A stretch of DNA of 64,000 nt from Alkalimarinus coralli (GTDB taxonomy: Bacteria; Pseudomonadota; Gammaproteobacteria; Pseudomonadales; Oleiphilaceae). The stretch lies in assembly GCF_023650515.1 (NCBI RefSeq), contig NZ_CP096016.1:2256001-2320000 (forward strand), read 5' to 3'. Shown one piece after another: positions 748 to 19,036 of the stretch (position 1 is the first letter of the stretch; each line of letters starts with the position of its first letter). Made by a program: the position numbers and the translations under genes. The notes under the pieces were generated by a model. The model was not told where the DNA came from, searched no databases, and saw nothing but the letters and a program-made list of their open reading frames with translations.

Positions 748-1152
748 TTACACCTTAATGTTAAATAAACTTAGTGGCTCATCCTGTTGCAAGTCCTGCG
801 CCAACCTCAATGCCACATCATCAGGTATTTGTCTGACTACTTCTGAAGTCTGACGATCAACAACGGTTATCACAGTTTTTCCAGATGAATCGTCCGTCTG
901 AAATTCAAGGTCTCGTTGCACATTCTGAATATAGTCATTCAGCTTGGTCACCGCTCCCTCTAACTGTTTATCCTTTTGCTCCTGACTCTGTTCACCACCC
1001 ACCTTATTAACATTCTCGGCTGATATGGTGTTAACAGAACCATTCGACTTATCGGATACCGTGGCTGCCTGCTGGGGTTCCTGCTGAGGTGAAGACGCAG
1101 ACGACCCAGCCCTGGTGGCCAGATCCAAACTACTTAACTTAACGTCATTCAT
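748..1152 (-). CDS. flaG: FlaG family flagellar protein
   Basis: A 134-residue protein. The first 60 residues are low-complexity (Ser/Gln/Ala-rich). The conserved FlaG part follows at about 65-134: a helix (LEGAVTKLNDYIQNVQRDLEFQTDD) and the signature TVVDRQTSEVVRQIPDDVALRLAQ. FlaG proteins are linked to filament length control, but their mechanism is unclear. The gene lies between a flagellin gene and fliD on the same strand, its standard position in polar-flagellum clusters of gammaproteobacteria. The flagellin terminator precedes it, so it needs read-through or its own promoter; I see none that is convincing. Confidence 0.9.
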   Translation of the reverse strand: MNDVKLSSLDLATRAGSSASSPQQEPQQAATVSDKSNGSVNTISAENVNKVGGEQSQEQKDKQLEGAVTKLNDYIQNVQRDLEFQTDDSSGKTVITVVDRQTSEVVRQIPDDVALRLAQDLQQDEPLSLFNIKV

Positions 1153-1248: not shown

Positions 1249-3336
1249 TTATCCCAGTAGTGATAGCACCTGCTGTGGACCAGCATTAGCCTGGGCTAAG
1301 ATTGAAATACCCGCCTGCTGTAGAACCGAAGATCTGGACAGTGCAGCGGTTTCTGCAGCAAAGTCAGCATCCTTGATTCGAGAATTTGCAGCTGACAAGT
1401 TCTCAGAGTTGATCTGGTTTGATGAGATCGTGTTATCAAAGCGGTTTTGGATCGCACCCAAGTTTGCACGCTCGGTGTTAACCTGTGTTAGCGCGTTATC
1501 CACTGCCTGGATAGCAGCATTCGCACCAGCAACCGTACTGATATCAACATCTTTCAGCAACGTACCAGACTCAGAGCCACCGTAAGTGCCGACATTTAGG
1601 CCAACATTTTCAATATCTCCAGTTTCTGTACCTAAGGTAAATGAGCCTGCTGATTTAAGCACCACACTTGCGACATTTACACTATCAACAAAACCTTCAT
1701 CGTTAGCAGCACCACCACCGGTAAGCTCTATATTACGTCCATCTTCAGCTACTAACTTATAGCTGTCACCATCCAACACCTCAGCTCTCACACCAGTCTG
1801 GCCAGACTTCGCATTGATAGCATCAATAGCGTTAGTTACCTTAGTCGCCACATCTGAACCAGCAGCAATATCAATAGTGACGCCATTAATACCTATCTGC
1901 CCAGCTGTGGTTACAGTAATGTCGCCAGAATAAATTGTATTCTCGCCAGCTTCAGCAGTAACTCCTGTGGTATCAGAAATCCGGTTTATCGCTGCAGCTA
2001 CCGAGATAGCACTCGCATCTGAATTTGCGGTCGATGCAGTATCATCTGACGCAAAAGACTGACCTACAGTCGCTCCATTAATTGTTAAATCACCAGAAAC
2101 CAATGCAACACGGCCACTTGCTACCGTATCCGCATCACCAACGACACCACCATTTACTCCACTGAAACTTCCCTCTTCAAAACCAGCATTATCTATATCA
2201 CCCGTTGTAGAGGTAATTTTTATATCTGACCCATCAGCACTCGTAAGTGTGACATTTCCCGTATAGACCTCTTCAGCGCCAGCAGCACCACCGGCAGCCA
2301 TACCAAGAGCAGCGGTAGTTACAGTCGCCTGACCAAGCTCAATGTTTCTTCCATCTGCTGCACTTAAATCGATTCGGAAGCCGTCATCAGTAGTAACTAC
2401 GGACGCAGTTACACCTGTTGCATCGGATTTAGCATTCAAGGCATCGGCCACTTTACCCAGCTCATTGCGCACGCCTTCTCCTGCAGTAGCGGCCCCAACC
2501 TGAATATCGATGGTCACGCCGTTAATAGAGACATTTCCGGCAGCAGCCGTCATATCCGCAGTGATAGAGGTACCTTCAACAGTATTCTCCGCTGCTGTAG
2601 CAGTAACGCCAGTTTGGTCACTTACCGCATTAATAGCAGCAGCCTTAGCAATTGCACTAGATGCCTGCTTAGAAGATGAAGTAGTATCAGCTGCCGCAGA
2701 TGATGCTCCAACTGCCACTCCGTTAATGTTCAAATCACCAGCAACCAGAGCAGTTGTTTCTGCCGCAACACCTACAGTTAAAGCAGCCTTACTGATATTT
2801 GATGTTATACCTGCTGTTTCGGCACTACCTAATGTAGATGTAGTTACTTCCGCAATGTTTACATCAATGGTTTCACCCACGTTTGCACCCACCTGGAAGG
2901 TTTGGGCCTGGAAGTCACCATTTAGCAGCTTAACGCCGTTAAAGTTAGTCTGATCAGAGATACGGCCAATCTCATCAATAATCTGTTTTGCTTCGGCGTT
3001 TAGGGCTTCACGGTCAACATCAGTGTTGGTTGCGTTAGCAGACTGTACCGCCAGCTCACGTAAACGAGATAAGTTAGTGGTAATCGAGTCCAAACCACCT
3101 TCAGCAGTTTGCGCCAGCGATACACCATCACCTGCGTTTCGTGTTGCAACATTCAAACCACTAATCTGTGATTCAAAACGAGTTGATATAGCCAAACCTG
3201 CCGCATCATCTTTTGAACTGTTGATACGTAAACCTGAAGACAAACGATTCAATGCTTGTGCATTATCTGACTGAGCATTGTTCAGATTACGTTGTGCGGT
3301 TAGCGAGTTAATATTGGTATTTATAATTTGTGGCAT
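1249..3336 (-). CDS. Flagellin (filament subunit), long form with duplicated variable region
   Basis: A 695-residue flagellin. The start is placed at MPQIINTNINSLTAQ because AGGAGA lies just before it; an in-frame start 10 codons earlier has no such site. The D0/D1 N-terminus (NRLSSGLRINSSKDDAAGLAIS) and C-terminus (ANSRIKDADFAAETAALSR...QVLSLLG) are canonical. About 450 residues in between carry two copies of a module of some 180 residues, each with GDLxING, INGVTIDI and GRNIEL phrases (flagellin hook-IN-type motifs). Typical flagellins have 280-500 residues. No cysteine is seen. A sigma-28 promoter lies upstream. It is paralogous to the flagellin at 3929-6028 in the opposite orientation. 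Confidence 0.95.
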   Translation of the reverse strand: MPQIINTNINSLTAQRNLNNAQSDNAQALNRLSSGLRINSSKDDAAGLAISTRFESQISGLNVATRNAGDGVSLAQTAEGGLDSITTNLSRLRELAVQSANATNTDVDREALNAEAKQIIDEIGRISDQTNFNGVKLLNGDFQAQTFQVGANVGETIDVNIAEVTTSTLGSAETAGITSNISKAALTVGVAAETTALVAGDLNINGVAVGASSAAADTTSSSKQASSAIAKAAAINAVSDQTGVTATAAENTVEGTSITADMTAAAGNVSINGVTIDIQVGAATAGEGVRNELGKVADALNAKSDATGVTASVVTTDDGFRIDLSAADGRNIELGQATVTTAALGMAAGGAAGAEEVYTGNVTLTSADGSDIKITSTTGDIDNAGFEEGSFSGVNGGVVGDADTVASGRVALVSGDLTINGATVGQSFASDDTASTANSDASAISVAAAINRISDTTGVTAEAGENTIYSGDITVTTAGQIGINGVTIDIAAGSDVATKVTNAIDAINAKSGQTGVRAEVLDGDSYKLVAEDGRNIELTGGGAANDEGFVDSVNVASVVLKSAGSFTLGTETGDIENVGLNVGTYGGSESGTLLKDVDISTVAGANAAIQAVDNALTQVNTERANLGAIQNRFDNTISSNQINSENLSAANSRIKDADFAAETAALSRSSVLQQAGISILAQANAGPQQVLSLLG

Positions 3337-3454
3337 AATGTTTCTCCTAGAACCTTCATCAAACAAGGCGCTCTCGTTATTGAGTTACCATATCTCCGCG
3401 CCACATCATTAAAAACGTAAGCCGTCGAATGGATAGATACTTGCCTTGTGATGT

Positions 3455-3793: not shown

Positions 3794-3928
3794 TTAAGGC
3801 TGTTAAGCGCAGATACGGTGTTCTGAACCTTCATCAGTATCGGAATAAAAACTTTAAAGCAGCCGGTAGTTGCTTAACCCATTTAGGGAATGCTGTCCGC
3901 CGGTATAGAAGATAAGCAGGAGGGTATA

Positions 3929-6028
3929 ATGCCTCAAATCATCAATACCAATATTGCGTCTATCAACGCGCAGCGAAACCTGAATAACTCTCAGGGTGAC
4001 TACAATACATCACTTCAACGTCTGTCTTCTGGCTTACGCATTAACAGCGCTAAAGACGATGCGGCGGGGTTGGCAATATCGACTCGTTTTACCTCTCAAA
4101 CCAGAGGGCTAGATGTTGCCATAAGAAACGCGGGCGACGGTGTTTCGCTTTCACAAACAGCAGAAGGCGCTTTGGGCGCAATGACAGATAACTTGCTAAG
4201 AATTCGAGACCTGTCACTTCAGTCTGCCAACGCAACCAATAGTGCAGTTGACCGAGAAGCGCTTAATACCGAAGTTCAGCAGCTAAAAGATGAAATTCAG
4301 CGTATTGCTGAACAGACTAACTTTAACGGCACCAAGCTGTTAGATGGCACCTTTGAAGATGTGACCTTTCAAATTGGCGCAAACGAAGGCGAAAGTCTTA
4401 CCTTTGGCATCGCTCAAACAACTACTGACGTTTTGGGCACCGCCAAAACAGACGGCATTACCTCAAACTCTGAAGTAATACCGACCATAACAGGCACAGC
4501 CCACGCTCTCGCAGCGGGAGACTTAGTGATCAACGGCATCGCAGTGCCAGCATCAACCGGTGTAGATGACAGCTTTTCTAATGTTGATAACGAGAAGAGT
4601 GCCATCGCTAAAGCCGCTGCAATAAACAAAGTCAGTGAACAAACCGGCATTGAGGCGATCGTTAACGAAACCTCCATCAGCGGCACAACAGGTTTCACCA
4701 GCGCTGACCGTGCAGGCACGCTTCAAATAAACGGAATCGATATTGCCGTATCAACTGCTGCGGGGCTTTCAGTCAGTGTAAACCTCGAAAACGTTGCTGC
4801 CGCCATCAATGAAAAGTCTGGCCAAACTGGCGTTGTGGCGACCTTTAATGGCAACCCAACAACAGGAATATCGTTAACTGCAGCGGACGGAAGAAACATT
4901 TCAATAACCGGTGACGGAACAGTCAACTCTAGCGCTTATGGTTTGCCTGCCAGTTTGGGCACAGGTGCAACAACAGATGCAACAAACTCAAACACCTACT
5001 TGGGTACTTACACGCTCGTCTCTTCTGCGGGTAAAGAGATGTCTCTGGATACCAACGCCGACATAGGGAACGCAGGGCTTCAGGTTGGCACGTTTAGTGG
5101 CAACAATAGTGGTGCTATTAGTGAAACCCAGCCATCCAATGCACTGGCCACTGGAGACTTAGTCATCAACGGCGTGCCAGTAGGCCCGAGCCTGAGCTCT
5201 TTCGACACGGCCTCAAGCGTCGGGAATGACTATAGCGCCATCTCTAAGGCTGGCGCGATCAATGAGGTTGCTGATCGAACAGGCGTAACGGCAGAGGTTA
5301 ATGCAGCAATTCTCAATGCTGACGCAGCCATTGCAGGCGTTGGTTCTGCAATAACAGGGTCATTCCAGCTGAACGGTGTACAAGTTAACCTGTCATGGGC
5401 GGCTGCTGATTCAGCGGCTGATGTTCAAGGCTCGATCGTTGACGCGGTAAACAACAAGTCAGGCCAGTCTGGCATTCGTGCAGAAGCCTTTGGAAATAGC
5501 TATAGACTCATTGCCGATGATGGGCGAAATGTCGTGGCAAGTAATTTCACCGGCCTTACCGCTGCCAACATTGGTTTAACCACTAACCAAACCGCAAACG
5601 GGTCAGTTACTTTGCTTTCGGCAGGTAAAATTGAGTTATCGTCCCTAACCGGTGCTATCGCGACCAATTCAGGCTTTGAAGTAGGCTCTTTTGGTTCGGC
5701 CGAAGATGGGCAGTTGATACAAGATATCGATATATCCACTGTTGATGGAGCGATAGCCGCGCTTAACGCGGTTGATAATGCACTCGATCAAATCAACTTT
5801 ACCCGTGCGGATCTGGGTGCGATTCAGAACCGATTTGAATCTACCATCGATAGCCAAGCGATTACTGCCGAGAACCTAACCACAGCTAACTCGCGAATCA
5901 GGGATGCAGATTTTGCAGCGGAAACCGCTGAGCTATCTCGTTCACAGGTTCTTCAGTCAGCTGGTTTGTCAGTTCTTTCTCAGGCAAATGCCGCCCCGCA
6001 GCAGGTACTGCAGCTGCTTCAGGGGTAA
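3929..6028 (+). CDS. Flagellin (filament subunit), second long paralogue
   Basis: A 699-residue flagellin starting MPQIINTNIASINAQ, directly after a strong CAGGAGGG ribosome site; the longer in-frame start 13 codons upstream is unlikely. The N-terminal (LQRLSSGLRINSAKDDAAGLAIS) and C-terminal (TTANSRIRDADFAAETAELSR) coiled-coil domains are standard. The central part again holds two divergent modules with the phrases GDLVINGIAVPAS, INGIDIAVS, GRNISITGDG, GDLVINGVPVGPS and DDGRNVVAS. It aligns over its length with the 695-residue flagellin but has clearly diverged. It is followed by the putative flagellin-modification island, so it is a likely substrate of that island. Confidence 0.95.
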   Translation: MPQIINTNIASINAQRNLNNSQGDYNTSLQRLSSGLRINSAKDDAAGLAISTRFTSQTRGLDVAIRNAGDGVSLSQTAEGALGAMTDNLLRIRDLSLQSANATNSAVDREALNTEVQQLKDEIQRIAEQTNFNGTKLLDGTFEDVTFQIGANEGESLTFGIAQTTTDVLGTAKTDGITSNSEVIPTITGTAHALAAGDLVINGIAVPASTGVDDSFSNVDNEKSAIAKAAAINKVSEQTGIEAIVNETSISGTTGFTSADRAGTLQINGIDIAVSTAAGLSVSVNLENVAAAINEKSGQTGVVATFNGNPTTGISLTAADGRNISITGDGTVNSSAYGLPASLGTGATTDATNSNTYLGTYTLVSSAGKEMSLDTNADIGNAGLQVGTFSGNNSGAISETQPSNALATGDLVINGVPVGPSLSSFDTASSVGNDYSAISKAGAINEVADRTGVTAEVNAAILNADAAIAGVGSAITGSFQLNGVQVNLSWAAADSAADVQGSIVDAVNNKSGQSGIRAEAFGNSYRLIADDGRNVVASNFTGLTAANIGLTTNQTANGSVTLLSAGKIELSSLTGAIATNSGFEVGSFGSAEDGQLIQDIDISTVDGAIAALNAVDNALDQINFTRADLGAIQNRFESTIDSQAITAENLTTANSRIRDADFAAETAELSRSQVLQSAGLSVLSQANAAPQQVLQLLQG

Positions 6029-6201: not shown

Positions 6202-8130
6202 ATGGCCGCTACTCCTCCCCCTCTAAGCTTCACTCTCTTTGACCTTGAAAAAGAAGTCTATCGACGAAACTACAAAAAATATGAGCAGTACCTAATTGAG
6301 TTATGCTCTTATTTGGACAATAAGGGACTCATCGAAGACAGCTATATAGTCAATGATAAAGGGGAGCCTGTAAAGGTTCAAAACGGCCTGCACCCGCTTA
6401 GCGGCATCATGTCCTTTGAGCAAAAAGTTGAGATTTATAACCGTATCGCCTCCTGCATTACCGCATATCTCTCAGATACGACCTATACCCCTAGCGATGA
6501 AGCACTACTTCATTTAATTTTTTTCAAAACAAATATTGCCAGTATTTTTTACATAAGCAGCTTCAACAATATGGACCATATTCTATGGAACAGGGACTTG
6601 CTCACTAATGATTTCCGGCTCAACCTAGCAACAGAACTGGATATTAAATACTTATTAGCCTGCTACACACTTAATAGCAACATTACCATTGATGTCGATA
6701 CGTTAATCAACGCAATTCCCTACTGGGGGGCAAGTTGGTACTTAGGCCTGTTATACCATCATCATCACTGCCTCAACCAGCGTATCCAAGAAAATTTTAA
6801 CAAATTGATTGCCAGCCATAAGCAGTTTGAGAAAGTGTCTTTGGACGTGACCTTAGCCGAGCTAGCCGCCTCCCCTTGGATGAATTGCTCATATTGGGAT
6901 ATCGAGAATCGTCATAGCGTTAAGAAATCAATCAATGTTGCACTGAAAAGGTGGGCAGAGGATGAAATTCAGCCAGGACTAAAGAAGAGAGTTTCGCGAT
7001 ACATCAAAAAAACAGATGGCATTAAACGCATTGTTGTATTGTGCGAAAAGTATTTTTCAAAACATGCGATGTACCGTAGTTACCATCTCCCTATTTCAGT
7101 ATTAAAACAGCATTACGACGTAACCTTGTTTTGTGCAGAGCAAGACTTTGACGATAACTCTGTAAAAGACTTCCATAGAGTTATTACCGTTAAAGATTCT
7201 GCTCAAAACATCGCACATATTGTGAAAGATATTGCTTCCATTGAACCTGACCTTATCCTTTATCCATCTCTGGGTATGGCCAAATGGACGATACCACTGT
7301 GCAACCTGCGCTTGGCCAAATATCAGGTAATGTGTTATGGCCACCCTGCTTCTGCCATGTCAGACGAGATAGACTACGGCTATTCATCTGGGTTTGCGCA
7401 AGGCCCTGACTACCAGTCGTTCTGCATGGAACAGGTAATCCCTGTTTATCATGCAGATCATGAAATCGTTTTTCAGAAGCACTCTCAGTTTGAAGAAATA
7501 GATCGCTCAACACCCGAAGATAATGTCGTCAGAATTGCCATTAACAGCTCTCTGCCCAAAATAAGCAATCGGTTTATTAAACTATGCTCTATTATCAAAT
7601 CACACTCCAGTGTTCCACTAGAGTTTCATTTTTTCGCTGTAGGTAATGCAGGATGTGAACTGACTGCATTTAAGAAGTCACTCCAAGAGCGAATAGGCAC
7701 CTGTATAGTTATCCACCCTCATGCACACTATATAGAGTATATGAAGAATCTAGCCAAGTGCGATTTGGCCATAGGGACATTTCCTTTTGGTAATGCCAAT
7801 ACCAATATAGATCTAGCCGTGCTGGGAATCCCAAAAATATATTATTCTGAAGAGTGCGGTTTAGCATCTTTCACCGATCATGCAACTTTACGGAAATTAA
7901 CACTACCAGATATTCTTAAGCCAACATCTGAAGCAGGCTTGTTGTCCAGTTTAATCTACTTAATCCACAACACCAACGAACGGCAAAGGATCTCTAAAGA
8001 GCTCCGAAATCAAAAACCAACAGAATCACTTACAGAGCGAAAAGAGGATGATTCTACCTTACTCAGGTCAATCCGGTGGATTGAAAACAAGGCGATATTA
8101 ACCATAAACAGAAAAGAAAATCAGAGCTGA
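6202..8130 (+). CDS. HMW1C/GT41-like glycosyltransferase, probable flagellin glycosyltransferase
   Basis: A 642-residue soluble protein. The helical N-terminal half (about 1-260) resembles the all-alpha domain of HMW1C-type enzymes. The C-terminal half looks like a GT-B fold: KRIVVLCEKYFSKHAMYRSYHLP near 274, DLILYPSLGMAKWTIPLCNLRLAKYQVMCYGHP around 350-390, and a donor-site-like segment, GTFPFGNANTNIDLAVLGIP, near 525-545. HMW1C relatives have FPFGNTNG at the last position. HMW1C enzymes add glucose to Asn in N-x-S/T sequons in the cytoplasm, whereas SPINDLY/OGT relatives modify Ser/Thr. Placement right after a flagellin suggests filament glycosylation. The start has AAGGA seven bases upstream. 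The next gene follows after 4 bases. Confidence 0.75.
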   Translation: MAATPPPLSFTLFDLEKEVYRRNYKKYEQYLIELCSYLDNKGLIEDSYIVNDKGEPVKVQNGLHPLSGIMSFEQKVEIYNRIASCITAYLSDTTYTPSDEALLHLIFFKTNIASIFYISSFNNMDHILWNRDLLTNDFRLNLATELDIKYLLACYTLNSNITIDVDTLINAIPYWGASWYLGLLYHHHHCLNQRIQENFNKLIASHKQFEKVSLDVTLAELAASPWMNCSYWDIENRHSVKKSINVALKRWAEDEIQPGLKKRVSRYIKKTDGIKRIVVLCEKYFSKHAMYRSYHLPISVLKQHYDVTLFCAEQDFDDNSVKDFHRVITVKDSAQNIAHIVKDIASIEPDLILYPSLGMAKWTIPLCNLRLAKYQVMCYGHPASAMSDEIDYGYSSGFAQGPDYQSFCMEQVIPVYHADHEIVFQKHSQFEEIDRSTPEDNVVRIAINSSLPKISNRFIKLCSIIKSHSSVPLEFHFFAVGNAGCELTAFKKSLQERIGTCIVIHPHAHYIEYMKNLAKCDLAIGTFPFGNANTNIDLAVLGIPKIYYSEECGLASFTDHATLRKLTLPDILKPTSEAGLLSSLIYLIHNTNERQRISKELRNQKPTESLTERKEDDSTLLRSIRWIENKAILTINRKENQS

Positions 8131-8134
8131 ACAT

Positions 8135-8833
8135 ATGAGGCTAGCAATCATGCAACCTTATTTTCTGCCCTACATCGGATATTGGCAATTGCTAAATAAG
8201 GTGGACAAATTTATAGTTTACGACAATATTCAATATACAAAAAAAGGGTGGATCAACAGAAACAGATTCTTGAAAAACGGGAAAGATGCACTTTTTACCA
8301 TTCCTTTAAAAAAAGACTCGGACACTCTAAATATCAGTGACCGAACGATAGCAAGTACTTATGATAAAGATAAACTCACTAGTCAGTTTAGAAACACTTA
8401 CCTAAGAGCCCCTTATTTTGAAGATGCCTTTCCAGTAATTGAAGAGGTTATTCACTATAATGCCGAAAACCTATTTGACTATATATTAAACTCTATCAAA
8501 AAAATTTGTTCATACTTAAAAATAGACGACTCAAAAATAACGGCATCTTCAAGTATTCCCATCGACCACACACTGAAATCTGAAGAAAAAGTCCTGGCGC
8601 TTTGCCATGCAATGGAAGCTAAGGAGTACTACAATCCGATAGGAGGGGTCGCACTGTACGATAAAGTTCATTTTTCAAACCAAAATATTGACTTGAAGTT
8701 TTTGAAGGCACTACCTATCGAATACAAGCAACATAATAACGAATTCGTTCCCTGGCTTTCTATCGTTGATATTATGATGTTTAGCAACTTGAGCTCAATT
8801 CAAGAAATGCTCACACACTTCACTCTTGAGTAA
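8135..8833 (+). CDS. WbqC-like family protein
   Basis: A 232-residue protein starting MRLAIMQPYFLPYIGYWQLL, the hallmark of the WbqC family. Further family features are DKFIVYDNIQYTKKGWINRNR and, near the C-terminus, YNPIGGVALYDKVHF. WbqC proteins occur in O-antigen and flagellin-glycan clusters, but their reaction is not well established; an acyl or aminoacyl transfer in sugar modification is often proposed. The gene starts 4 bases after the HMW1C-like gene and lacks a clear ribosome site, so it is probably translationally coupled to it. Confidence 0.85.
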   Translation: MRLAIMQPYFLPYIGYWQLLNKVDKFIVYDNIQYTKKGWINRNRFLKNGKDALFTIPLKKDSDTLNISDRTIASTYDKDKLTSQFRNTYLRAPYFEDAFPVIEEVIHYNAENLFDYILNSIKKICSYLKIDDSKITASSSIPIDHTLKSEEKVLALCHAMEAKEYYNPIGGVALYDKVHFSNQNIDLKFLKALPIEYKQHNNEFVPWLSIVDIMMFSNLSSIQEMLTHFTLE

Positions 8834-8886: not shown

Positions 8887-9852
8887 TTAGCATTCCAACA
8901 AAGCAACACCAAACCCAAATCGTCCAAACTCATTCCCGTTGTACAGCATATACACATTTCCATCACATTCAAACACATGAGGGTACGCCAGCATTTCAGA
9001 GTCCCAGCCACTCTCAGAGACAGTAATGCCTGCACTCAGGTCATCTCTATTCCAGTTAAGTAAATCATCAGAGTAGGCATACCCTATCCGATAACTATTT
9101 TCTTTATTTTTCCTGAAGTCGAAGGGTTGCCTATAGCAAAAAAACATATGATATCTATTGTCGTGCTCAATAACAGTAGGCAACGCTTGACACTCATCTG
9201 GATTCAACTTATCGGCAATTATTTGTTTCCCTTCCTTTTCCCACTCTTTACCGTCTTCAGAAGTTGCGTGTCCAATCTTATATACTCGATCAGGATGCGA
9301 CGACTCCGCACTTTTTATCCATTTTGTCCCATAGATATACCACATGTGATAGGTGTCGCCGTAAATAGAAACAAACGCATCCCCAACTAAAAATGGCTCG
9401 TGCAGAGAGGATGTGAGCACAGGCCCTTTGCCAACCTTTTGAAACGTCATCCCATTATCATTGCTAACGGCCAAACCAACCGATGCATCTACAGAAACAG
9501 ACACCCGTCTATTCCAACCCGTTGTATAAGCAAGTATTCGACTGTGTTTCTTGTCCTTCAAAACATTCATAGGAAAGATCCCGTGCTCATCAAAATCACC
9601 TAATCCTCCAAGCTCAATTACAGAACTGGGTGATATCGCCAATACATTTTTGAAATCTTTGCTCATGTCAACAAAGCAAACATGACTTAAGTATTTGCCT
9701 GAATGGTCTCTTTCTCGGGTCGAGAAATAAATCCGAATAAAATTATCAAAGATGATAGTCTGGGGCGACTGTGCAAATTCACCATTTCCAATGGGCAAGT
9801 CATGCTCCGTCGGGTCAAATATTTTTCCTAGTTTTTTCCACTTCACAACCAC
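8887..9852 (-). CDS. Five-bladed beta-propeller glycosidase-like protein, copy 1
   Basis: A 321-residue protein without a signal peptide. It resembles the GH43/GH32/GH130 beta-propeller superfamily: repeated blades with WYIYG, YKIGHATSEDGKEWE, YRIGYAYSDDLLNWNRDD and GWDSEMLAYPHVFE. It shares an opening (KWKKLGKIFDPTE) and most of its length with the next gene, so the two are a tandem duplication. Both lie in the flagellin-modification island on the strand opposite the glycosyltransferase. The lack of a signal sequence argues for a cytoplasmic role, such as trimming or transferring a glycan precursor, rather than polymer degradation. The exact family and substrate are unknown. Confidence 0.65.
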   Translation of the reverse strand: MVVKWKKLGKIFDPTEHDLPIGNGEFAQSPQTIIFDNFIRIYFSTRERDHSGKYLSHVCFVDMSKDFKNVLAISPSSVIELGGLGDFDEHGIFPMNVLKDKKHSRILAYTTGWNRRVSVSVDASVGLAVSNDNGMTFQKVGKGPVLTSSLHEPFLVGDAFVSIYGDTYHMWYIYGTKWIKSAESSHPDRVYKIGHATSEDGKEWEKEGKQIIADKLNPDECQALPTVIEHDNRYHMFFCYRQPFDFRKNKENSYRIGYAYSDDLLNWNRDDLSAGITVSESGWDSEMLAYPHVFECDGNVYMLYNGNEFGRFGFGVALLEC

Positions 9853-9921: not shown

Positions 9922-10884
9922 CTAAAGTTCGCCCTTCAACTCAGCTAAACCAAACCCGTATTTGCCAATATGATTACCCTGGTAAAGCATGAACACATGA
10001 CTATCCAGCTCAAATAAATGAGGGTAACTAATCATTTCAGAATCCCACCCTGCATCAGACAACCTAATACCTGCCTTATCATCATCTCTAACCCATGTAA
10101 TAAGATCTTTAGAATGCGCATAGCCGATACGATAGCCCTTATCTTTAGTCTTAAAGTCAAAATTAAAGCGGTATGAGAAAAACATATGGTATTTTCCATT
10201 TCTGAAAAACACGTCTGGGCTAGCTTGGCATTCACTATCCCCCAACTTTGACTCAATTAAATCTGAGCCATGTTTGACCCACTTAATTCCATCGAACGAT
10301 GTCGCCATCCTTATTTTATAAATAGGTTCTGGATTTCCATTCTTATTTTCGACCCAGCGTTTGCCTGCTACATACCATAAATACCACTTATCATTGAACT
10401 TTCTTATTCTAGGGCTACCCAATACGAATGGCTCATCAATACTATAAGATAACACTGGTCCATTACCCAGTCGGCTAAAGTTGACCCCATCATCATAACT
10501 AATAGCCACACCCACTGCCGCATTAACAGTGACAGACTCACACCTCGTCCACCCGGCATAATACACGCGGACTTCTTGCCCATGCCTAATTACAGAAGCC
10601 GGGTTAACACCAAATTCGTCAAACGTGCCTAAGGAACCTAATTCCAATACGGGTTTCTTGCAAATGTTAATTACTTCAAACAAATTATCTCTTTTTAAAT
10701 CAGCGTACCCCAAATAACTAACATATTGACCATTGCTATCAGCAGCAGGTCGACAACTGAAAAACACTCTTACAAATTTTTCAAAAATAAGTACTGACGG
10801 CGCTTGTGCAAACTCTTTCATCCACCAGATATTTCTAACTTCTGTGGGATCAAATATTTTTCCCAACTTCTTCCACTCAAACAC
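9922..10884 (-). CDS. Five-bladed beta-propeller glycosidase-like protein, copy 2
   Basis: A 320-residue paralogue of the protein at 8887-9852. Conserved phrases are FEWKKLGKIFDPTE (start), FSCRPAAD, LGTFDEFGVNPASVI, YKIRMATSFDGIKW, YRIGYAHSKDLITWVRDDDKAGI and GWDSEMISYPHLFE. Acidic residues (DE, DD, DSE) sit at equivalent blade positions in both copies, as expected if a carboxylate active site is kept. There is no signal peptide. It is transcribed first and copy 1 follows after 69 bases. Pairs of such proteins are seen in surface-polysaccharide clusters, but I know of no characterised member. Confidence 0.65.
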   Translation of the reverse strand: MFEWKKLGKIFDPTEVRNIWWMKEFAQAPSVLIFEKFVRVFFSCRPAADSNGQYVSYLGYADLKRDNLFEVINICKKPVLELGSLGTFDEFGVNPASVIRHGQEVRVYYAGWTRCESVTVNAAVGVAISYDDGVNFSRLGNGPVLSYSIDEPFVLGSPRIRKFNDKWYLWYVAGKRWVENKNGNPEPIYKIRMATSFDGIKWVKHGSDLIESKLGDSECQASPDVFFRNGKYHMFFSYRFNFDFKTKDKGYRIGYAHSKDLITWVRDDDKAGIRLSDAGWDSEMISYPHLFELDSHVFMLYQGNHIGKYGFGLAELKGEL

Positions 10885-10978: not shown

Positions 10979-11536
10979 TTAATCCCAATAACGATTGCGC
11001 TCCAACAATTCCTGGTAATCCGCTCGTGTGATACCAACTAAAACCTGATCCCAGTAACGTCCTTTTCTAAAATACCAATTTCGTCTTCTTCCTTCTTCTT
11101 TCCAGCCCAACTTGTCACAGTAAAATGTATGCGAAGCCGTATTGTACTCAATCATTGAACCATCGAGCCTTTCAAAGTGCAGCTCATCAAATGCATATCT
11201 CATTGTCGCCATAACAGCATCAATTCCATACCCTTTACCTCTGATATCCGCATCCCCCAACATTACTCCATGCCAAGCCCTGTTATTCCTCCAATCGATG
11301 TTAATGATGCTGGATATACCAATAAGACCAATGTCCGGTGTGTCGATAGCCAACCGCTGATTAAGCTGATCATTTGCTAAACTTTTAAACCAAGACTTGT
11401 GGAACTCCATGGAACTTGGAAAGTGAATCCCCCCCATTATGTCTTGAGTTTCAGGGTTATTTGCCCAACAGTGAAGTAGAGCCAAATCCTCTTCTTCAAT
11501 GGCTCTTAAAATAATTTTTTTCCCTCTTATATTCAT
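10979..11536 (-). CDS. GNAT N-acetyltransferase, RimJ/RimL type
   Basis: A 185-residue protein with the GNAT layout: an N-terminal strand (KKIILRAIEEEDLALLHCWANNPETQ), a central IGISSIINIDWRNNRAWHGVMLGDADIRGKGYGIDAV holding the acetyl-CoA loop (RGKGYG), and SHTFYCDKLGWKEEGRRRNWYFRKGRYWDQVLVGI at the end. It resembles enzymes such as PseH that acetylate amino sugars. With the aminotransferase at 12713-13828, a role in making an acetamido-sugar for flagellin is plausible. It is upstream of and co-directional with the propeller genes. Substrate unproven. Confidence 0.8.
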   Translation of the reverse strand: MNIRGKKIILRAIEEEDLALLHCWANNPETQDIMGGIHFPSSMEFHKSWFKSLANDQLNQRLAIDTPDIGLIGISSIINIDWRNNRAWHGVMLGDADIRGKGYGIDAVMATMRYAFDELHFERLDGSMIEYNTASHTFYCDKLGWKEEGRRRNWYFRKGRYWDQVLVGITRADYQELLERNRYWD

Positions 11537-11730: not shown

Positions 11731-12456
11731 CTAATTACAGCTCTTAATCTCAGCCAGGATTCCACAGCACAGCTCAGGGTATTCAATCCCAACCGTGCAT
11801 AATGCATCAATAATTTTCTGGTCGAGATTTAGAGAAATCATTTGTGAAGTAGTCAATGGCTTCAGATAGATGCCCTCCATTCTTTCTACCATGCAACCGG
11901 CACGCTCTACATCTTCAGTCAGTGTTTTGACTGAGTAATAACGTTTGTGCCCGCACAAGTAATCATGTTCTGACAACTCCTCCATATCAGACAAAATGCC
12001 AGCTTCAAACCCTAACCTCCTATTTAGTACTTCAGAGTTCGGTACAGCCAAAAATATTCTTCCACCGGGTGCCAGAAACTCCTTATATTTGGCCATTATT
12101 TCAACAGGGTTATCTACATGCTCAAGAACGAAGCCTAAAATAACCACATCAAACTTTTCATCAGTCTGAAAACTCTCAAAATACGCCTCCATAATGTTTA
12201 CATTACTCGCAGGAAACAGCATATTAAAATTATTTATTACGGCCTTTGAAGCCTCGACAACAACATATCGTTCAAAGTGATTAGAAAATAAATTCGTGCT
12301 AAAACCGTGCCCCAGCCCAAGTTCCAACATCGACTTCGCACCTGCTGTATGCTGGATCACTCTCTTTGGGTACCAATTGAGCTGTATATTGTTATCAAAA
12401 TCATACAAATTCGTACCTTCATATGCGCCAACATGTGAATCTAAAATGCCATCCAT
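11731..12456 (-). CDS. Class I SAM-dependent methyltransferase, copy 1
   Basis: A 241-residue methyltransferase. Motif I is SMLELGLGHGFSTNLF (about 42-57), the acidic loop is VVVEAS, and DVVILGFVLEHVDNP is the motif IV region. The post-core part (GGRIFLAVPNSEVLNRRLGFEAGIL) and C-terminus (LEHDYLCGHKRYYSVKTLTEDVERAGC) match the methyltransferase at 13888-14625, so the two are paralogues. Such enzymes in glycan loci typically methylate sugar hydroxyls or carboxyls. It faces away from the aminotransferase gene across a 256-base AT-rich divergent region with no other gene visible. The 194 bases downstream, before the acetyltransferase gene, also show no gene. Confidence 0.8.
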   Translation of the reverse strand: MDGILDSHVGAYEGTNLYDFDNNIQLNWYPKRVIQHTAGAKSMLELGLGHGFSTNLFSNHFERYVVVEASKAVINNFNMLFPASNVNIMEAYFESFQTDEKFDVVILGFVLEHVDNPVEIMAKYKEFLAPGGRIFLAVPNSEVLNRRLGFEAGILSDMEELSEHDYLCGHKRYYSVKTLTEDVERAGCMVERMEGIYLKPLTTSQMISLNLDQKIIDALCTVGIEYPELCCGILAEIKSCN

Positions 12457-12712
12457 AAAAACCCTCGTTACATCGTTATCCTTTATTCACCGAATTATAG
12501 TCACATGGTATAAAATGAAGTTCGGCAAAAACTATTAATTTAAATTTAGTATATGAAGAATTAGATAATTTAAACATTCGCAAATGCAAGCCGATATGTT
12601 GTCTATAGTTAAACAATACATCTACTACTAAAAATTGATCTAGCCTTTAAATAAGGCTTGATAATTGCCTTAACAATAGAATCGCATCAAAAAACAATCG
12701 GTGGTAAAAGTT

Positions 12713-13828
12713 ATGATTTCTTATTTGGTTCCAGATATGCCTACTACAGAGAGCCTGGTTCCCTATCTCAAGGAAATCGAGAATAATCGCTGGTACTCAA
12801 ATTTTGGCCCACTTTATTTTGAATTGAGGCAACGTTTTGCCGATAAATGTCTCAATAGAACCGACCCGGATCGCCTCACATTGGTATCTTCCGGCACATC
12901 AGCAATAGAACTTGCCCTGAGAAATCTAAAGCTTCCCAAAAGAGCCAAAGTTCTAACCAGCAGCTTTACTTTCCCAGCGACCGTGCAAGCTATTCTGAAT
13001 GCAGAGCTAACACCCGTTATTGCAGATATACACGAAAAAAACTGGCAACTAACGCCGACAATGGCCGAAAGAAGCATGCTGCTTCATGATATCCAAGCGG
13101 TAGTACCTGTAGCCGCATTTGGTATGCCTGTCTCAAATGAAGCATGGCAACGCTTTAACGAAAAAACCAACCTCCCCATTGTCGTTGATGCCGCCGCCGC
13201 ACTACTCAACCAAGAAGTAAACGATACGTTCACTTATACCTTTAGCCTTCATGCAACCAAACCAATTGGCGTTGGCGAGGGTGGATTAATAGTTAGCCCA
13301 AAAAAAAGTGACTCCATCGCGATCAGAAGAATGGCAAACTTCGGATTTGAAGCCAATCGCTCGATACTTCATGCTGGAACAAATGCGAAAATAAGCGAGT
13401 ATCATTGTGCGGTTGGATTAGCACAACTTGATCGCCTTGAGAAGATTAAGCTGCAGCGCTCTAAGATAATGGAAAAATATATTGAGTTGATTTCAAAAGA
13501 AAAACTACCCGTTACGTTTCAGCAGTGCAGTGAAGAATACGTTCCAGCATCATTATATGTCTTATTTGATCAAGCCGATGCTGGAGAGCTGTTTGAGGGG
13601 CTTCTCGCTCATAAGATAGAGACGCGGAGACTTTACTGGCCCTTAATACAAGGGTTTCCCGCGTTTAACGAACAGGTTTTGCATGCAGGTATCGATTTCA
13701 AGACCGCACAGCACGTATCATGCAACGGGCTGGCTCTTCCTTTTCATAATTTACTTGAGACTACCGATATAGAGCAAACTGTGTGCAAGTTATCTGAGCT
13801 TCTATTCAAACAAGTTTTAAGCAACTAA
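12713..13828 (+). CDS. DegT/DnrJ/EryC1/StrS-family PLP aminotransferase
   Basis: A 371-residue sugar aminotransferase-like protein. Evidence: VSSGTSAIELALRNL (PLP phosphate region), LTSSFTFPATVQAILNAELTPVIADI, IPLP-domain VVDAAAALL, and the lysine in HATKPIGVGEGGLIV that would bind PLP. These enzymes transaminate nucleotide keto-sugars. The annotated start is the ATG (MISYLVPDMP), preceded at normal distance by GGTGG; a GTG four codons earlier lacks a ribosome site. The neighbouring acetyltransferase and methyltransferases suggest synthesis of an N-acylated, O-methylated amino sugar. The usual dehydratase partner is not in the window. Confidence 0.83.
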   Translation: MISYLVPDMPTTESLVPYLKEIENNRWYSNFGPLYFELRQRFADKCLNRTDPDRLTLVSSGTSAIELALRNLKLPKRAKVLTSSFTFPATVQAILNAELTPVIADIHEKNWQLTPTMAERSMLLHDIQAVVPVAAFGMPVSNEAWQRFNEKTNLPIVVDAAAALLNQEVNDTFTYTFSLHATKPIGVGEGGLIVSPKKSDSIAIRRMANFGFEANRSILHAGTNAKISEYHCAVGLAQLDRLEKIKLQRSKIMEKYIELISKEKLPVTFQQCSEEYVPASLYVLFDQADAGELFEGLLAHKIETRRLYWPLIQGFPAFNEQVLHAGIDFKTAQHVSCNGLALPFHNLLETTDIEQTVCKLSELLFKQVLSN

Positions 13829-13887: not shown

Positions 13888-14625
13888 ATGAGTAGAAATT
13901 TTAATAACGAGTTTAAAGATACCAATCACAGCAAATATGCGTACAGCTTCGATTACGACGTTCTACACCCATTCATAATCAGATCATTTGAACCTTTTTT
14001 TAAAGAAGGAAAATTACTTGAGCTGGGTTGTTTTCAAGGTATGTTCACCAAACGACTCCTCCAATATTTCAGCGACATTACCTGCGTAGAAGCGTCAGAT
14101 GCCGCCATTGCCGTAGCGCGAAACAACGTAGAAGGCAATATCACGTTCGTTAATTCAACATTTGAAAAAGTAAAACTTCCAGGGCAGTACAATAACATTG
14201 TGATGACTCATGTATTGGAACATTTGGACGACCCTATTTTAGTTCTTAAGCGAATAAATGATGAATGGCTAGCCGAGGGCGGTCGACTCTTTCTTGTTTG
14301 TCCTAACGCGAATGCGCCCTCACGCCAAATAGCCGTTAAAATGGGACTAATAAGTCATAACGCCTCTGTAACTCCTCAAGAACGCGAACATGGGCATAGA
14401 GTTACATATAGCCTCGATACGCTTGAAAGAGATGCAACCGCCGCAGGTTTAAATGTCGTATATCGGTCAGGTATATTCTTTAAGGCTCTGGCAAATTTTC
14501 AATGGGACAAGCTTTTAGCCACGGACATTATTTCTAAAGAATATCTGGAAGGCTGCTATCAGTTGGGCCAGCAATATCCAGACCTATGCTCGAGTATATT
14601 TTTGATGTGTGAAAAAGGGCGTTAG
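13888..14625 (+). CDS. Class I SAM-dependent methyltransferase, copy 2
   Basis: A 245-residue methyltransferase with motif I KLLELGCFQGMFTKRLLQYF, the acidic VEASDAA loop, and NIVMTHVLEHLDDPILVLKRI in the core. The C-terminus (EREHGHRVTYSLDTLERDATAAG, FFKALANFQWDKLL, YPDLCSSIFLMC) parallels the paralogue at 11731-12456. It follows the aminotransferase after 59 bases on the same strand, so the two are probably co-transcribed. Likely role: methylation of the flagellin glycan. Acceptor unknown. Confidence 0.8.
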   Translation: MSRNFNNEFKDTNHSKYAYSFDYDVLHPFIIRSFEPFFKEGKLLELGCFQGMFTKRLLQYFSDITCVEASDAAIAVARNNVEGNITFVNSTFEKVKLPGQYNNIVMTHVLEHLDDPILVLKRINDEWLAEGGRLFLVCPNANAPSRQIAVKMGLISHNASVTPQEREHGHRVTYSLDTLERDATAAGLNVVYRSGIFFKALANFQWDKLLATDIISKEYLEGCYQLGQQYPDLCSSIFLMCEKGR

Positions 14626-14819: not shown

Positions 14820-14861
14820 TACTCCCCTTTCAAATACAAAAGCGGAAGAGGCTTGCCTATA

Positions 14862-16856
14862 ATGAATTCAACGACACCTAATCTTCAGCCATCAGTAAAT
14901 GAACTTTCACAAGGTGAGCGTGCAGATACCGCTCGCTTGCTTATCCATGCAAACGATCTTTACCAGATCGCCAATAATGTAGCGACACCGGCTTCAGAAA
15001 GGCAGTCTTCACTGAACAGTGCATTTGAATTGGTGACACAAGTCATTAGTTATGATCCGTCTAACACCCCTGCCATGAACTTGCTGGGGCGTATTGAGCT
15101 GGATCGAGGCAATATCCTATCGGCCAAAGCCCTTTTTAATACCTGTATTGATCGCGCCCCTGAAAATACGCAATATTTAACCAATACCGGCTACCTGTAT
15201 CTTGTAGCAGACGAACCTGAAAAGGCGCTAGAGCTTTTTAACGCATCACTGTCAATTGACAAAAGCTATGTTAACGCCTTTTTGGGCATAGCTCGCGCTC
15301 AACAAGCGTTACGTCATTTTGATATTGCTTATCTACACTACCGAACCCTTGTAAACTATGGCCACAATAATAAAACAATCTTGCAGGGCATGCTCAGTTG
15401 CTGTGAACACATCAAGATTGAACGGTATGAGGCCGCACTGGAAAACGATCTGCTCAATTTGTTTGAACAGGATGACTTGCCTCATGAGCGTTTAAGCCAT
15501 TTTGCAGCGGCACTTATTAATAAAAAGTACGATCTTGAAAACCCCAATGCACCGATTGATTTAATATCGGTCGCTAGCGACCCTCTCATTTTGCATGCAT
15601 TGTTAAAATGTAATCTGCCCAACCCGTTTGTTGAGGAGTTTGTTACCCTGCTTCGGCAAAGCATTCTGTTTGAAGCAGTGGAAACACGCCACCTTCGAGA
15701 TGAACTTCAGCAGCTCACGGTAGCCATTGGCGTTTATGCAGAACGAAGCAACTATGCGCTTATTGTTGACGAAGTAGAAACGACTCACGCCCAACATTTC
15801 GACCAGATTTTAACTAAAACGCTTCAGAGCCACTGGTGCATTGATGATGTTGCCGGTGCATTGATTGTCGTGGGCATGTATCAAGCCTTCTTTTCACAAA
15901 GTTATGCAGTCAACCTAACTGCATTATCGTTATCAGAGTGGCCCATAGCACTCGCTCCACTCATGGCTTCATCGCTCTACAGGCGCGCTGAACGGGAGTC
16001 TTTTAAGCAGCAGTTTCCGGAAAAACAGGATGAGCTTTTAATAGCAAAAGAGGATTTGCCCGCACCATTTCCCCGCTGGAATAACCTTGCATTGTTTAAT
16101 GAGCAATCATTAAAAAAAGATTTGATTCAGAGCTTTGACCTGTCTGCCGAAAGCCTGCCAGAGAAGCTATTGCTTTTGGTTGCGGGCACCGACGCAGCTC
16201 AGAAGGCGTTCGAGTACGCCCGATACTTTACTGATGTTGATGTACTTGCTGTAGAAAACAGCCTTGAGAATCTCGCGGAAAGTCACTTAAAAGCACAAGA
16301 AGAGCAGCTAACGAATATTGCATTTTGGCCTCCATCATTAGCAAAACGGTTCCTGCAAGACGGCAATGAAATTCACTTTGCTTCCATTAGTGGCGATTCT
16401 AAGGTGCTCGATAGTACCTTTATTAAACTCATTCAAAGTAGCTTAAGTAAAAATGGCATATTGAATATTAAGCTAGAAACATCGCCAGATAGTGCGACAA
16501 GCGATATCCAGGCACTCGTCAAAAAACAGGCATTAAGAGCCACATCAGCCAATATACGAGCACTTAGGGCTACCATACTGGCTGACAAATACAGTGATTA
16601 CTGGGCCAGCTTAATCAATGATGATTACTTCTACTCTGTAGATGGGTGTCGTCAATCATGGTTCAGCAACAATGCACAACAAGCCGTGCTTGATTCGGTA
16701 ATCGATCTGTTGGGAACCCCTGACTGGACACTATCCAAAGTACTCAACCACCATAGCAAAGCGGTGGCCACCGCTTTAGCCAAAAAGCATTTGGTTAAGT
16801 TTGCAGAAGGGCAAAATATAGAAAATGAATACTCGGTTTATTTAGTTAAGGGGTAA
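14862..16856 (+). CDS. TPR protein with degenerate methyltransferase-like domain
   Basis: A 664-residue protein. Residues about 20-200 contain TPR-like repeats (ALELFNASLSIDKSYVNAFLGIARAQQAL). The rest resembles the SAM methyltransferase plus regulatory domain of TPR methyltransferases in glycosylation loci: LLLVAGTDAAQKAFEYARYF replaces the usual GCGTGQ motif I, then DVLAVENSLENLAESHLKAQE, and later RALRATILADKY and DDYFYSVDGCRQSWF. The glycine-rich SAM loop is therefore damaged and activity is doubtful. The ATG start is chosen over a TTG three codons earlier because GGAAGAGG lies just before it. Possible role: scaffold or adaptor for flagellin modification. Confidence 0.65.
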   Translation: MNSTTPNLQPSVNELSQGERADTARLLIHANDLYQIANNVATPASERQSSLNSAFELVTQVISYDPSNTPAMNLLGRIELDRGNILSAKALFNTCIDRAPENTQYLTNTGYLYLVADEPEKALELFNASLSIDKSYVNAFLGIARAQQALRHFDIAYLHYRTLVNYGHNNKTILQGMLSCCEHIKIERYEAALENDLLNLFEQDDLPHERLSHFAAALINKKYDLENPNAPIDLISVASDPLILHALLKCNLPNPFVEEFVTLLRQSILFEAVETRHLRDELQQLTVAIGVYAERSNYALIVDEVETTHAQHFDQILTKTLQSHWCIDDVAGALIVVGMYQAFFSQSYAVNLTALSLSEWPIALAPLMASSLYRRAERESFKQQFPEKQDELLIAKEDLPAPFPRWNNLALFNEQSLKKDLIQSFDLSAESLPEKLLLLVAGTDAAQKAFEYARYFTDVDVLAVENSLENLAESHLKAQEEQLTNIAFWPPSLAKRFLQDGNEIHFASISGDSKVLDSTFIKLIQSSLSKNGILNIKLETSPDSATSDIQALVKKQALRATSANIRALRATILADKYSDYWASLINDDYFYSVDGCRQSWFSNNAQQAVLDSVIDLLGTPDWTLSKVLNHHSKAVATALAKKHLVKFAEGQNIENEYSVYLVKG

Positions 16857-16905: not shown

Positions 16906-17217
16906 TCAGATAGTACCTAACCGTTGAATGGTGTCTGGGTATTTTTCAACCATTTTGATAAGCAGAGCTGCCTGTGAGTTTGGTTTAACTCGGCCTTGCT
17001 CCCAATTTTCTAATGTTCTTTTATTGATTCTTAAAAAATCAGCAAAAACAGCCTGTGATAAGTGCAACCTTTCCCTTAAACTGATTAGCTCCTCGCTAGT
17101 CACCTCAGGCGTTTCTGTCGCCATCACCAAGTGCTGTTTTAGGGTAGTTTTCCCTTCTCTATCATCCTTTAAAGACTGGAACCCTTCACTTAATTCTTCG
17201 AATAAATTACGTTTCAT
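16906..17217 (-). CDS. HigA/NadS-type antitoxin, HTH transcriptional regulator
   Basis: A 103-residue protein with a C-terminal Xre-type helix-turn-helix: SLRERLHLSQAVFADFLRINKRTLENWEQGRVKPNSQAALLI (about 46-87). The N-terminal half is probably the toxin-binding part. It overlaps the end of the upstream toxin gene by 4 bases (ATGA), the toxin-first order typical of higBA systems. It should neutralise the toxin and repress its own promoter, where a palindrome is found at 17603-17621. Confidence 0.85.
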   Translation of the reverse strand: MKRNLFEELSEGFQSLKDDREGKTTLKQHLVMATETPEVTSEELISLRERLHLSQAVFADFLRINKRTLENWEQGRVKPNSQAALLIKMVEKYPDTIQRLGTI

Positions 17218-17558
17218 AATAAGCTTCTCGCTTTAATTTCAAGCTTCAACAAGTCTGCCAATAACTTCAGCTCAGCTTTGGTAAGGTCTGTAACTTCATC
17301 TTTGTCGTAAATGGTAAAAAGCCAAAACTGTGATCCTTCTTTCCACCAATAGTAGATAACCCTAACACCACCACGCTTTCCTTTTCGTCTACGTTCATCC
17401 TTATAACGCACTTTTCGCAGTCCGCAAGTCCCTTTTATTAAATCACCAGATGTAGGATTTTTCAGTATCTCATTTTGAAAATTACGGTAAGCATTGTCAT
17501 CTAAATAGTGCCCTCTATTCCGCTCAAATGGCGGTAACTCTATAAATACTGCCTTCAT
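17214..17558 (-). CDS. HigB/RelE-type toxin
   Basis: A 114-residue basic protein of the RelE/HigB-2 type: MKAVFIELPPFERNRGHYLDDNAYRNFQNEIL, GDLIKGTCGLRKVRYKDERRRKGKRGGVRVIYYWWKEG, and FWLFTIYDKDEVTDLTKAELKLLADLL. The Arg/Lys-rich strand followed by RVIYYW is the usual ribonuclease core. RelE-family toxins cleave ribosome-bound mRNA. It is transcribed first in a two-gene operon with the HTH antitoxin. Located between the glycosylation island and the arsenosugar operon, it may be part of accessory DNA. Confidence 0.85.
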   Translation of the reverse strand: MKAVFIELPPFERNRGHYLDDNAYRNFQNEILKNPTSGDLIKGTCGLRKVRYKDERRRKGKRGGVRVIYYWWKEGSQFWLFTIYDKDEVTDLTKAELKLLADLLKLEIKARSLL

Positions 17559-18237: not shown

Positions 18238-18296
18238 AGAAGATAGATATCCGTTTAAGGATGTATGGCACGCACTTAAGCCAAATGGCTCTAATT

Positions 18297-18322
18297 TATA
18301 GGGTGTGTTTGCGCACCCTATA
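18297..18322. repeat. REP-like palindromic repeat
   Basis: A 26-base near-perfect palindrome with the core GGGTGTGTTTGCGCACCC flanked by TATA on both sides. The same core occurs twice in inverted orientation at 51447-51467 and 51533-51553. It lies between two co-directional genes of the arsenosugar-type operon and may act as an attenuator or simply be a dispersed repeat. Confidence 0.7.
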
Positions 18323-18349
18323 ATGTTAGAAAATTACTAACAGGTGCGC

Positions 18350-19030: not shown

Positions 19031-19036
19031 TTTTAG

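Follow-up and report, generated by a model that had tools for sequence, protein, structure and literature searches.

An HMW1C-fold Glycosyltransferase Gene in a Putative Flagellin Glycosylation Island of Alkalimarinus coralli and Related Pseudomonadales

The Locus and Its Gene Content

The window analysed here, a stretch of 64,000 nucleotides of the Alkalimarinus coralli genome, contains two divergent flagellin genes, a gene for an HMW1C-like glycosyltransferase, and a cassette of genes for sugar synthesis and modification that ends at a gene for a tetratricopeptide repeat (TPR) protein (Table 1). The open reading frame (ORF) of the enzyme begins 173 bp after flaB and stops 4 bp before the WbqC-like gene. 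The neighbors named in the earlier note, a flagellin gene upstream, a wbqC gene downstream and a second flagellin gene nearby, were all confirmed. Among the cassette proteins scanned, which represent part of the ORFs of the window and of two related loci (L017 and L020), the enzyme is the sole recognized glycosyltransferase fold. A scan for promoters and terminators gave matches at chance level.

Table 1. Features of the flagellin locus in the window
Feature	Position	Strand	Evidence or remark
FlaG	748..1152	-	PF03646, E 2.4e-18
Flagellin FlaA, 705 aa, presumed acceptor	1249..3366	-	PF00669/PF00700; divergent
Flagellin FlaB, 712 aa, presumed acceptor, directly upstream of enzyme	3890..6028	+	PF00669/PF00700
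HMW1C-fold glycosyltransferase (predicted)	6202..8130	+	ATG start, 642 aa
WbqC-like protein, glycan cassette	8135..8833	+	PF08889, E 2.2e-66
GH130/GH32-like cassette protein	8887..9852	-	Domain scan; 64% identical homologues in L171, L172
Second GH130/GH32-like protein	9922..10884	-	By similarity; 62.5% identical homologues in L171, L172
GNAT acetyltransferase, weakly PseH-like	10979..11536	-	PseH 53.3 bits, below the 93.1 cut-off
Methyltransferase-like protein	11731..12456	-	By eye and BLAST to relatives
DegT-type sugar aminotransferase (PseC/VioA-like)	12701..13828	+	PF01041, E 3.6e-56
Methyltransferase	13888..14625	+	PF13489, E 1e-19; 68-69% identical homologues in L171, L172
TPR protein, 667 aa, right border of island	14853..16856	+	Directly after flagellin where the cassette is absent

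The borders of the cassette become visible in comparison with a congener (G001), in which FlaB is 93% identical and the TPR gene lies about 216 bp downstream of it. In the window, about 8.8 kb separate flaB from the TPR gene, and about 8.6 kb of this is extra relative to the congener. The inserted genes have a G+C content of 35.6-43.5%; FlaG-FlaB stands at 46.4% and the remainder of the window at 44.8%. The TPR gene was also found in 20 of 24 fetched flagellin pieces that have no HMW1C-like gene, and a homologous gene stands beside flagellin in most of the Marinobacter-type genomes sampled. Upstream of it, in both the window and G001, is a TTGGCA...TTCGCA box, which we take to be sigma-54-like; the TPR protein is probably flagellin-related. 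Further along the window, two small reverse-strand ORFs (16906-17558) resemble, by eye, a toxin-antitoxin pair with an HTH antitoxin and a RelE/HigB-like partner, and two glycosyltransferase-like ORFs with a radical SAM ORF (17626-20011) have the likeness, again by eye, of an arsenosugar-type cluster.

The enzyme gene is absent from two congeners (G001 and G004), and the flagellin locus of a third (G003, piece L057) carries a gene for a 711-aa Maf protein together with PseC-like and PseH-like genes. In other words, glycosylation modules are swapped within one genus. Besides the window itself, 11 of 16 flagellar carrier pieces encode a DegT aminotransferase of PseC/VioA type, as do one of 24 flagellin pieces without the enzyme gene and three of nine other HMW1C-like loci. 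Homologues of WbqC are present at five of the 16 flagellar carrier loci and were found at none of the 24 flagellin loci without the gene and none of the nine other HMW1C-like loci. Two carriers (G1339 and G1356) have, beside the enzyme, homologues (50-69% identity) of WbqC, both GH130-like proteins and the second methyltransferase; because four cassette proteins of the window recur there, we argue for a shared module. Marinobacter-type cassettes add RmlA-like and RmlB-like proteins, an oxidoreductase, a hexapeptide acyltransferase and an FkbM methyltransferase, and the cassette of G002 adds an AMP ligase and an acyl carrier protein. The locus thus has the make-up of a flagellin glycosylation island: a transferase and sugar genes at a flagellin locus, variable between relatives.

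Several neighbors of HMW1C-like genes elsewhere should also be mentioned. At three of the nine non-flagellar loci (L124, L127 and L128) the HMW1C-like gene adjoins a gene for a PseC-like aminotransferase, a hint that divergent HMW1C enzymes may use an amino-sugar donor. A TPR-sulfotransferase fusion (L126, 7794-9479) adjoins a very divergent HMW1C-like gene, and in G1186 (L168, 5521-8745) a 1074-aa protein with a lactonase-propeller match is encoded between flagellin and the HMW1C-like gene.

Domains and Predicted Fold of the Enzyme

A Pfam scan of the 642-aa protein found the all-alpha HMW1C_N domain (PF18071; E 4.7e-13, 49.7 bits, cut-off 27), and the HMw1_D2 family scored only 15.2 bits, under its cut-off of 26.2. 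The NCBIfam model NGTferase (NF049992) covers residues 13-604 (E 1.5e-54), at 185.6 bits and so well under the equivalog cut-off of 1000, and phmmer aligns the protein with HMW1C of A. pleuropneumoniae (3q3e; E 5.2e-42). The same Pfam scan reported no TPR family at E values up to 1 and no match to PF01973 (Maf). An AlphaFold model was built from nine sequences (pLDDT 78, pTM 0.79). Its top structural matches are 3q3e_B (Z 32.2, rmsd 3.1, 574 aligned residues) and AaNGT with peptide, 8p0q_A (Z 32.0), the NGT chains aligning over 574-599 residues; OGT/SPINDLY chains rank next, at Z 17-21, which points to a related fold with the NGTs nearer. The HMW1C_N domain, the alignment with the NGT model and the matches to NGT structures together indicate that the assignment to the HMW1C family made in the earlier note is right, and the structure modelling proposed there as a check on a different GT family likewise placed NGT structures nearest. 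On the predicted model, then, the product is a full-length HMW1C-fold (GT41) glycosyltransferase.

The FPFGNANTN motif of this protein aligns with FPFGNTNG of the NGTs. Together with the position of the gene, it had been read as pointing to flagellin as the target; it is part of the donor site and is uninformative on the acceptor.

Association with Flagellar Loci across Relatives

Among 196 related genomes, 12 have a match to the enzyme at E 0.001, and nine of these matches, including that of the window's own genome, are strong. We fetched 20 kb around the gene in each of the eight strong carriers besides the window. In seven of them (36-49% identity) the gene immediately adjoins a flagellin gene, six times downstream on the same strand and once divergently (G028); in the divergent case the called ORF overlaps the flagellin start, and the true start is probably further in. 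That genome (piece L050), labelled as a Vreelandella utahensis assembly, groups by kinship with the window and Marinobacter in one family and is perhaps mislabelled. Zooshikella ganghwensis (L054) is a further carrier with the gene next to flagellin. In the clade of the window, therefore, all nine genes lie next to a flagellin gene, eight downstream on the same strand and one divergently. The eighth fetched carrier (G147) has a different arrangement, in the order flagellin, FlaG, FliD, FliS, a 108-aa ORF, a PseC-like gene and the HMW1C-like gene.

A second, larger search, through 332 genomes of the order at E 1e-20, gave 13 carriers, nine of which had not been among the matches of the first (one of them Z. 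ganghwensis). Seven of the new carriers fall in the same family as G147. The fetched pieces of six of these have a flagellin gene no more than about 4-6 kb away, and the piece of the seventh has FliD and FliS at the contig end. In this second clade, the gene is thus in the flagellar locus, in the flagellin-FliD-FliS region, in all eight members. The remaining carrier, G1345 from another family, has the gene outside the flagellar locus. Altogether, 17 of the 18 Pseudomonadales carrier genomes have it in a flagellar locus; these 18 have no joint denominator, because the 196- and 332-genome searches partly overlap. Such conserved synteny rules out a chance neighborhood of enzyme and flagellin.

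In these counts, three weak partial matches of the 196-genome search (G011, G021 and G128) were left out, the 20-kb pieces of G021 and G128 having no flagellin, as were matches under about 150 bits. A scan of named genomes with a single protein found nothing, and with alignment A2 it gave six loci, that of Z. ganghwensis and five from genomes already sampled.

In the tree, the clade of the window (nine members) and the second clade (eight members) are each supported at 100/99 and lie apart, so the flagellar link is either old or has arisen twice. The second clade tends to group with the classical NGTs (94/94, not starred). Three of the sequences with matches under about 150 bits (L129-L131, from G316, G372 and G282) stood apart as a group of their own in the first tree and were dropped from the second, which also omits G257 and G398 (long branches). 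Outside the order, none of nine fetched loci with related HMW1C-like genes (one of them only 3.7 kb long) has flagellin nearby; together with the single non-flagellar case among 18 in the order, this limits the flagellar link to these clades in our sample. Of the HMW1C_N loci in 295 Enterobacterales genomes, none has a flagellin gene closer than 1.5 kb. Many of the carriers there belong to one family (f214) that is Pasteurellaceae-like, and Pasteurellaceae are as a rule without flagella; for this reason the lack of flagellin neighbors in the Enterobacterales is weak evidence.

The usual flagellin transferase is Maf. A profile search for it (PF01973) gave matches in 51 of the 196 related genomes, none of them among the nine strong carriers, the window genome included. 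Given 49 Maf carriers (counted by eye) among 171 flagellin-bearing genomes, the chance of finding none in nine is 0.044, a generous figure, since relatedness among the carriers weakens it. The absence of Maf in carriers is consistent with its replacement by the HMW1C-like enzyme.

Donor Site and Acceptor Dyad

Seven residues of the donor site (H276, R280, H370, K440, Y500, N520 and D524 in AaNGT numbering) are kept in all 17 flagellar members; of two other donor-site positions, G369 is kept in 16 and H494 in three. The acceptor side is different. As described for AaNGT (PMC10507012), Arg177 and Asp215 recognize the +2 Ser/Thr of the sequon, and the R177A and D215A mutants are inactive. In our alignment neither residue is kept in any of the 17 flagellar members, and the window protein has His and Ser. 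Position 177 reads H,H,K,E,E,N,E,E,N in the clade of the window and N,L,L,Q,T,T,L,L in the second clade; position 215 reads S,S,P,N,N,N,N,N,N and P,I,I,V,P,P,P,S, respectively. The alignment at 215 is anchored by an adjoining ungapped W-M motif; that at 177 stands beside a one-residue gap and is less sure.

R, H and D are kept in all 20 readable loci among the 23 NGT loci of the Enterobacterales (L148, L150 and L152 have no readable motif), and also in G376 and G236. All divergent HMW1C-like proteins, flagellar or not, are without the dyad. Its loss is therefore not a signature of flagellin; judged from the alignment, the dyad marks the classical NGT clade.

Sequons in the Flagellins

If flagellin were modified at Asn-X-Ser/Thr, one might look for an excess of such sequons. 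In the window, FlaA and FlaB have three and nine core sequons, compared with 6.2 and 8.7 expected; the total of 12 compared with about 14-15 expected from composition is no excess. The sequon count proposed in the earlier note thus came out at or below the compositional expectation for both proteins. Only one of the 12 is shared with the nearest carrier (G002), whereas the degree to which other N and S/T are conserved would predict about four. Two congeners free of the NGT gene retain six and seven of the nine sequons of FlaB. Moreover, FlaB of the window is 92-93% identical to FlaB of congeners without the enzyme gene and so shows no adaptation to the enzyme.

The broader comparison is flat. 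In the carriers, 29 flagellins from 16 genomes have 152 core sequons versus 157.7 expected from shuffling; in the non-carriers, 43 flagellins from 22 genomes have 228 versus 220.1. Sequon density per genome is 1.44 per 100 in carriers and 1.53 in non-carriers (p 0.54). Under the stricter flagellin filter, G040 gave no flagellin and G030, G043 and Z. ganghwensis each lost one. A first, looser test gave p 0.88; its 51 control rows included four from NGT-positive genomes (L047 and L049), a few short ORFs and at least two rows of FlgL size.

The Marinobacter-type carriers behave differently. In four genomes, eight flagellins have 70 sequons versus 42.7 expected, and the reversed motif occurs 36 times. 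Their densities (2.44-3.65) are at or near the top of those of 31 NGT-negative Marinobacter-type genomes (0.97-2.76), with per-genome p values of 0.0003 on density and 0.003 on the ratio of seen to expected. These p values are too small, because the excess was noticed post hoc, after the overall test (it was tested with 11 and then 31 control genomes), and because the eight flagellins form only two lineages, 63-94% identical and at most 53% identical to any of the nearest sampled non-carriers. Between G025 and G048, the FlaA-like flagellin keeps six of 10 sequons (5.5 expected) and the FlaB-like one five of six (2.5 expected). That flagellin core and enzyme travel together in the Marinobacter type is a sign of a working pair, and in this subgroup, which has Glu at 177 and Asn at 215, N-linkage to Asn-X-Thr appears possible from these sequences.

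What the Enzyme May Modify

From the genomic context, flagellin is well supported as the target of the enzyme. The proposal that flagellin is modified through N-x-S/T accordingly divides in two: the target stands, on the flagellar synteny in 17 of 18 genomes, and N-linked glucosylation in this genome does not, given the lack of a sequon excess and the loss of the dyad. The reading that we consider somewhat probable is that the protein is a flagellin-dedicated HMW1C-fold transferase with changed acceptor recognition, situated in a mobile flagellin glycosylation island. An HMW1C-type enzyme, soluble, cytoplasmic and of the GT-B type, would have been recruited to flagellin, its island of about 8.6 kb being inserted between flaB and the TPR-protein gene. 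Most likely, it would take a sugar from a nucleotide donor and attach it directly to flagellin ahead of export, and so fill the role that Maf plays elsewhere. The sugar is probably an amino/deoxy sugar, with the DegT aminotransferase taking part in its synthesis and with acetylation or methylation added, because the gene content of the cassette resembles that of the Pseudomonas viosamine islands. Acceptor recognition would have shifted away from reading Asn-X-Ser/Thr, and the modified residue would therefore probably be Ser/Thr, or Asn outside the canonical sequon.

Three other explanations have to be weighed against this reading. Classical N-linked glucosylation of flagellin at Asn-X-Ser/Thr would suit the full HMW1C fold, the intact donor site and the sequon excess of the Marinobacter-type carriers, in which the reversed motif is not in excess; we nevertheless think it unlikely, since the comparison of carriers with non-carriers is flat, the sequons of the window are few, little shared with G002 and largely retained in gene-free congeners, the dyad whose Ala mutants are inactive in AaNGT is absent, and the Marinobacter excess is a post hoc observation on two flagellin lineages. 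Alternatively, the enzyme may extend a glycan begun on flagellin by another transferase. ApHMW1C also makes hexose-hexose bonds, and the cassettes are rich in sugar-modifying genes. A comparable role is proposed for Fgi-1 of Aeromonas, namely addition to a pseudaminic acid derivative already bound to flagellin (PMC7874193). However, Maf was not found in the nine carriers, and the cassette proteins scanned yielded no second transferase fold; an initiating enzyme is thus not evident, and such an extension seems quite improbable. It is very improbable that the acceptor is something else altogether (an adhesin, LPS or capsule) and that the flagellin locus is merely a hot spot for glycan islands: the low G+C of the cassette relative to FlaG-FlaB and the non-flagellar settings of HMW1C-like genes elsewhere would fit, but two separate clades have the gene in flagellar loci, in 17 of 18 genomes, with differing cassette contents.

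A bolder generalization, which we put forward tentatively and regard as doubtful, is that HMW1C-type enzymes form a further class of Maf-independent cytoplasmic flagellin glycosyltransferases in the Pseudomonadales, sequon-guided and N-linked in the Marinobacter type and sequon-independent in the lineage of the window. If true, the Marinobacter-type case would be bacterial flagellin N-glycosylation without an oligosaccharyltransferase.

Adhesins are the substrates for which the HMW1C/NGT enzymes are known, and the short Asn sequon that these enzymes recognize is the reason for their use in glycoengineering. A natural branch without the sequon-reading residues, tied to one abundant and easily purified protein, would show how the acceptor of this fold changes. 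If the favored reading is true, flagellin-modifying enzymes would have a new class besides Maf and FlmG.

Comparison with Known Systems

The window protein shares with the HMW1C/NGT enzymes (ApNGT, 3q3e; AaNGT, 8p0q) an N-terminal HMW1C_N domain, a GT-B domain, a full-length structural match and the donor-site residues. In contrast, it is only 20-23% identical to them, scores below the NCBIfam equivalog cut-off and has lost the Arg177/Asp215 dyad, and its gene stands beside flagellin, not beside an adhesin gene or rimO. The GT41 enzymes of the OGT/SPINDLY kind differ in their TPR N-terminal domain, which was not reported in the window protein.

GT41 enzymes in flagellin islands are already known. 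The flagellin glycosylation islands of the Enterobacteriaceae, as described by De Maayer and Cowan (2016, PMC4875605), encode GT41 enzymes that carry a SPINDLY/COG3914 domain and, in most cases, a fused methyltransferase domain. What they have in common with our locus is a flagellin glycosylation island in which a GT41 transferase is accompanied by DegT and methyltransferases; that description, with its SPINDLY-type and mostly fused enzymes, sets them apart from ours. An HMW1C-type enzyme acting on flagellin is apparently unreported, as a survey of the open-licence literature, mostly at title level, found no report with flagellin as the substrate of such an enzyme.

The cassettes of L017 and L020 resemble the viosamine island of P. 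syringae and the PAK glycosylation island (PMC3927599) in a VioA-type aminotransferase, an acyl carrier protein, an acyltransferase and a methyltransferase, and the transferases of those islands are Fgt1, Fgt2 and VioT, which are apparently not described there as HMW1C-like. Maf (PF01973) is similar in that its gene lies at a flagellin locus with sugar-synthesis genes, as in G003 of the same genus, but the window protein has no PF01973 domain and Maf was not found in the nine HMW1C-like carriers searched. Caulobacter FlmG (PMC7591256) is likewise a soluble GT-B enzyme that acts on flagellin in a Maf-free genome; it differs in having a TPR N-terminal domain and in using a pseudaminic acid donor.
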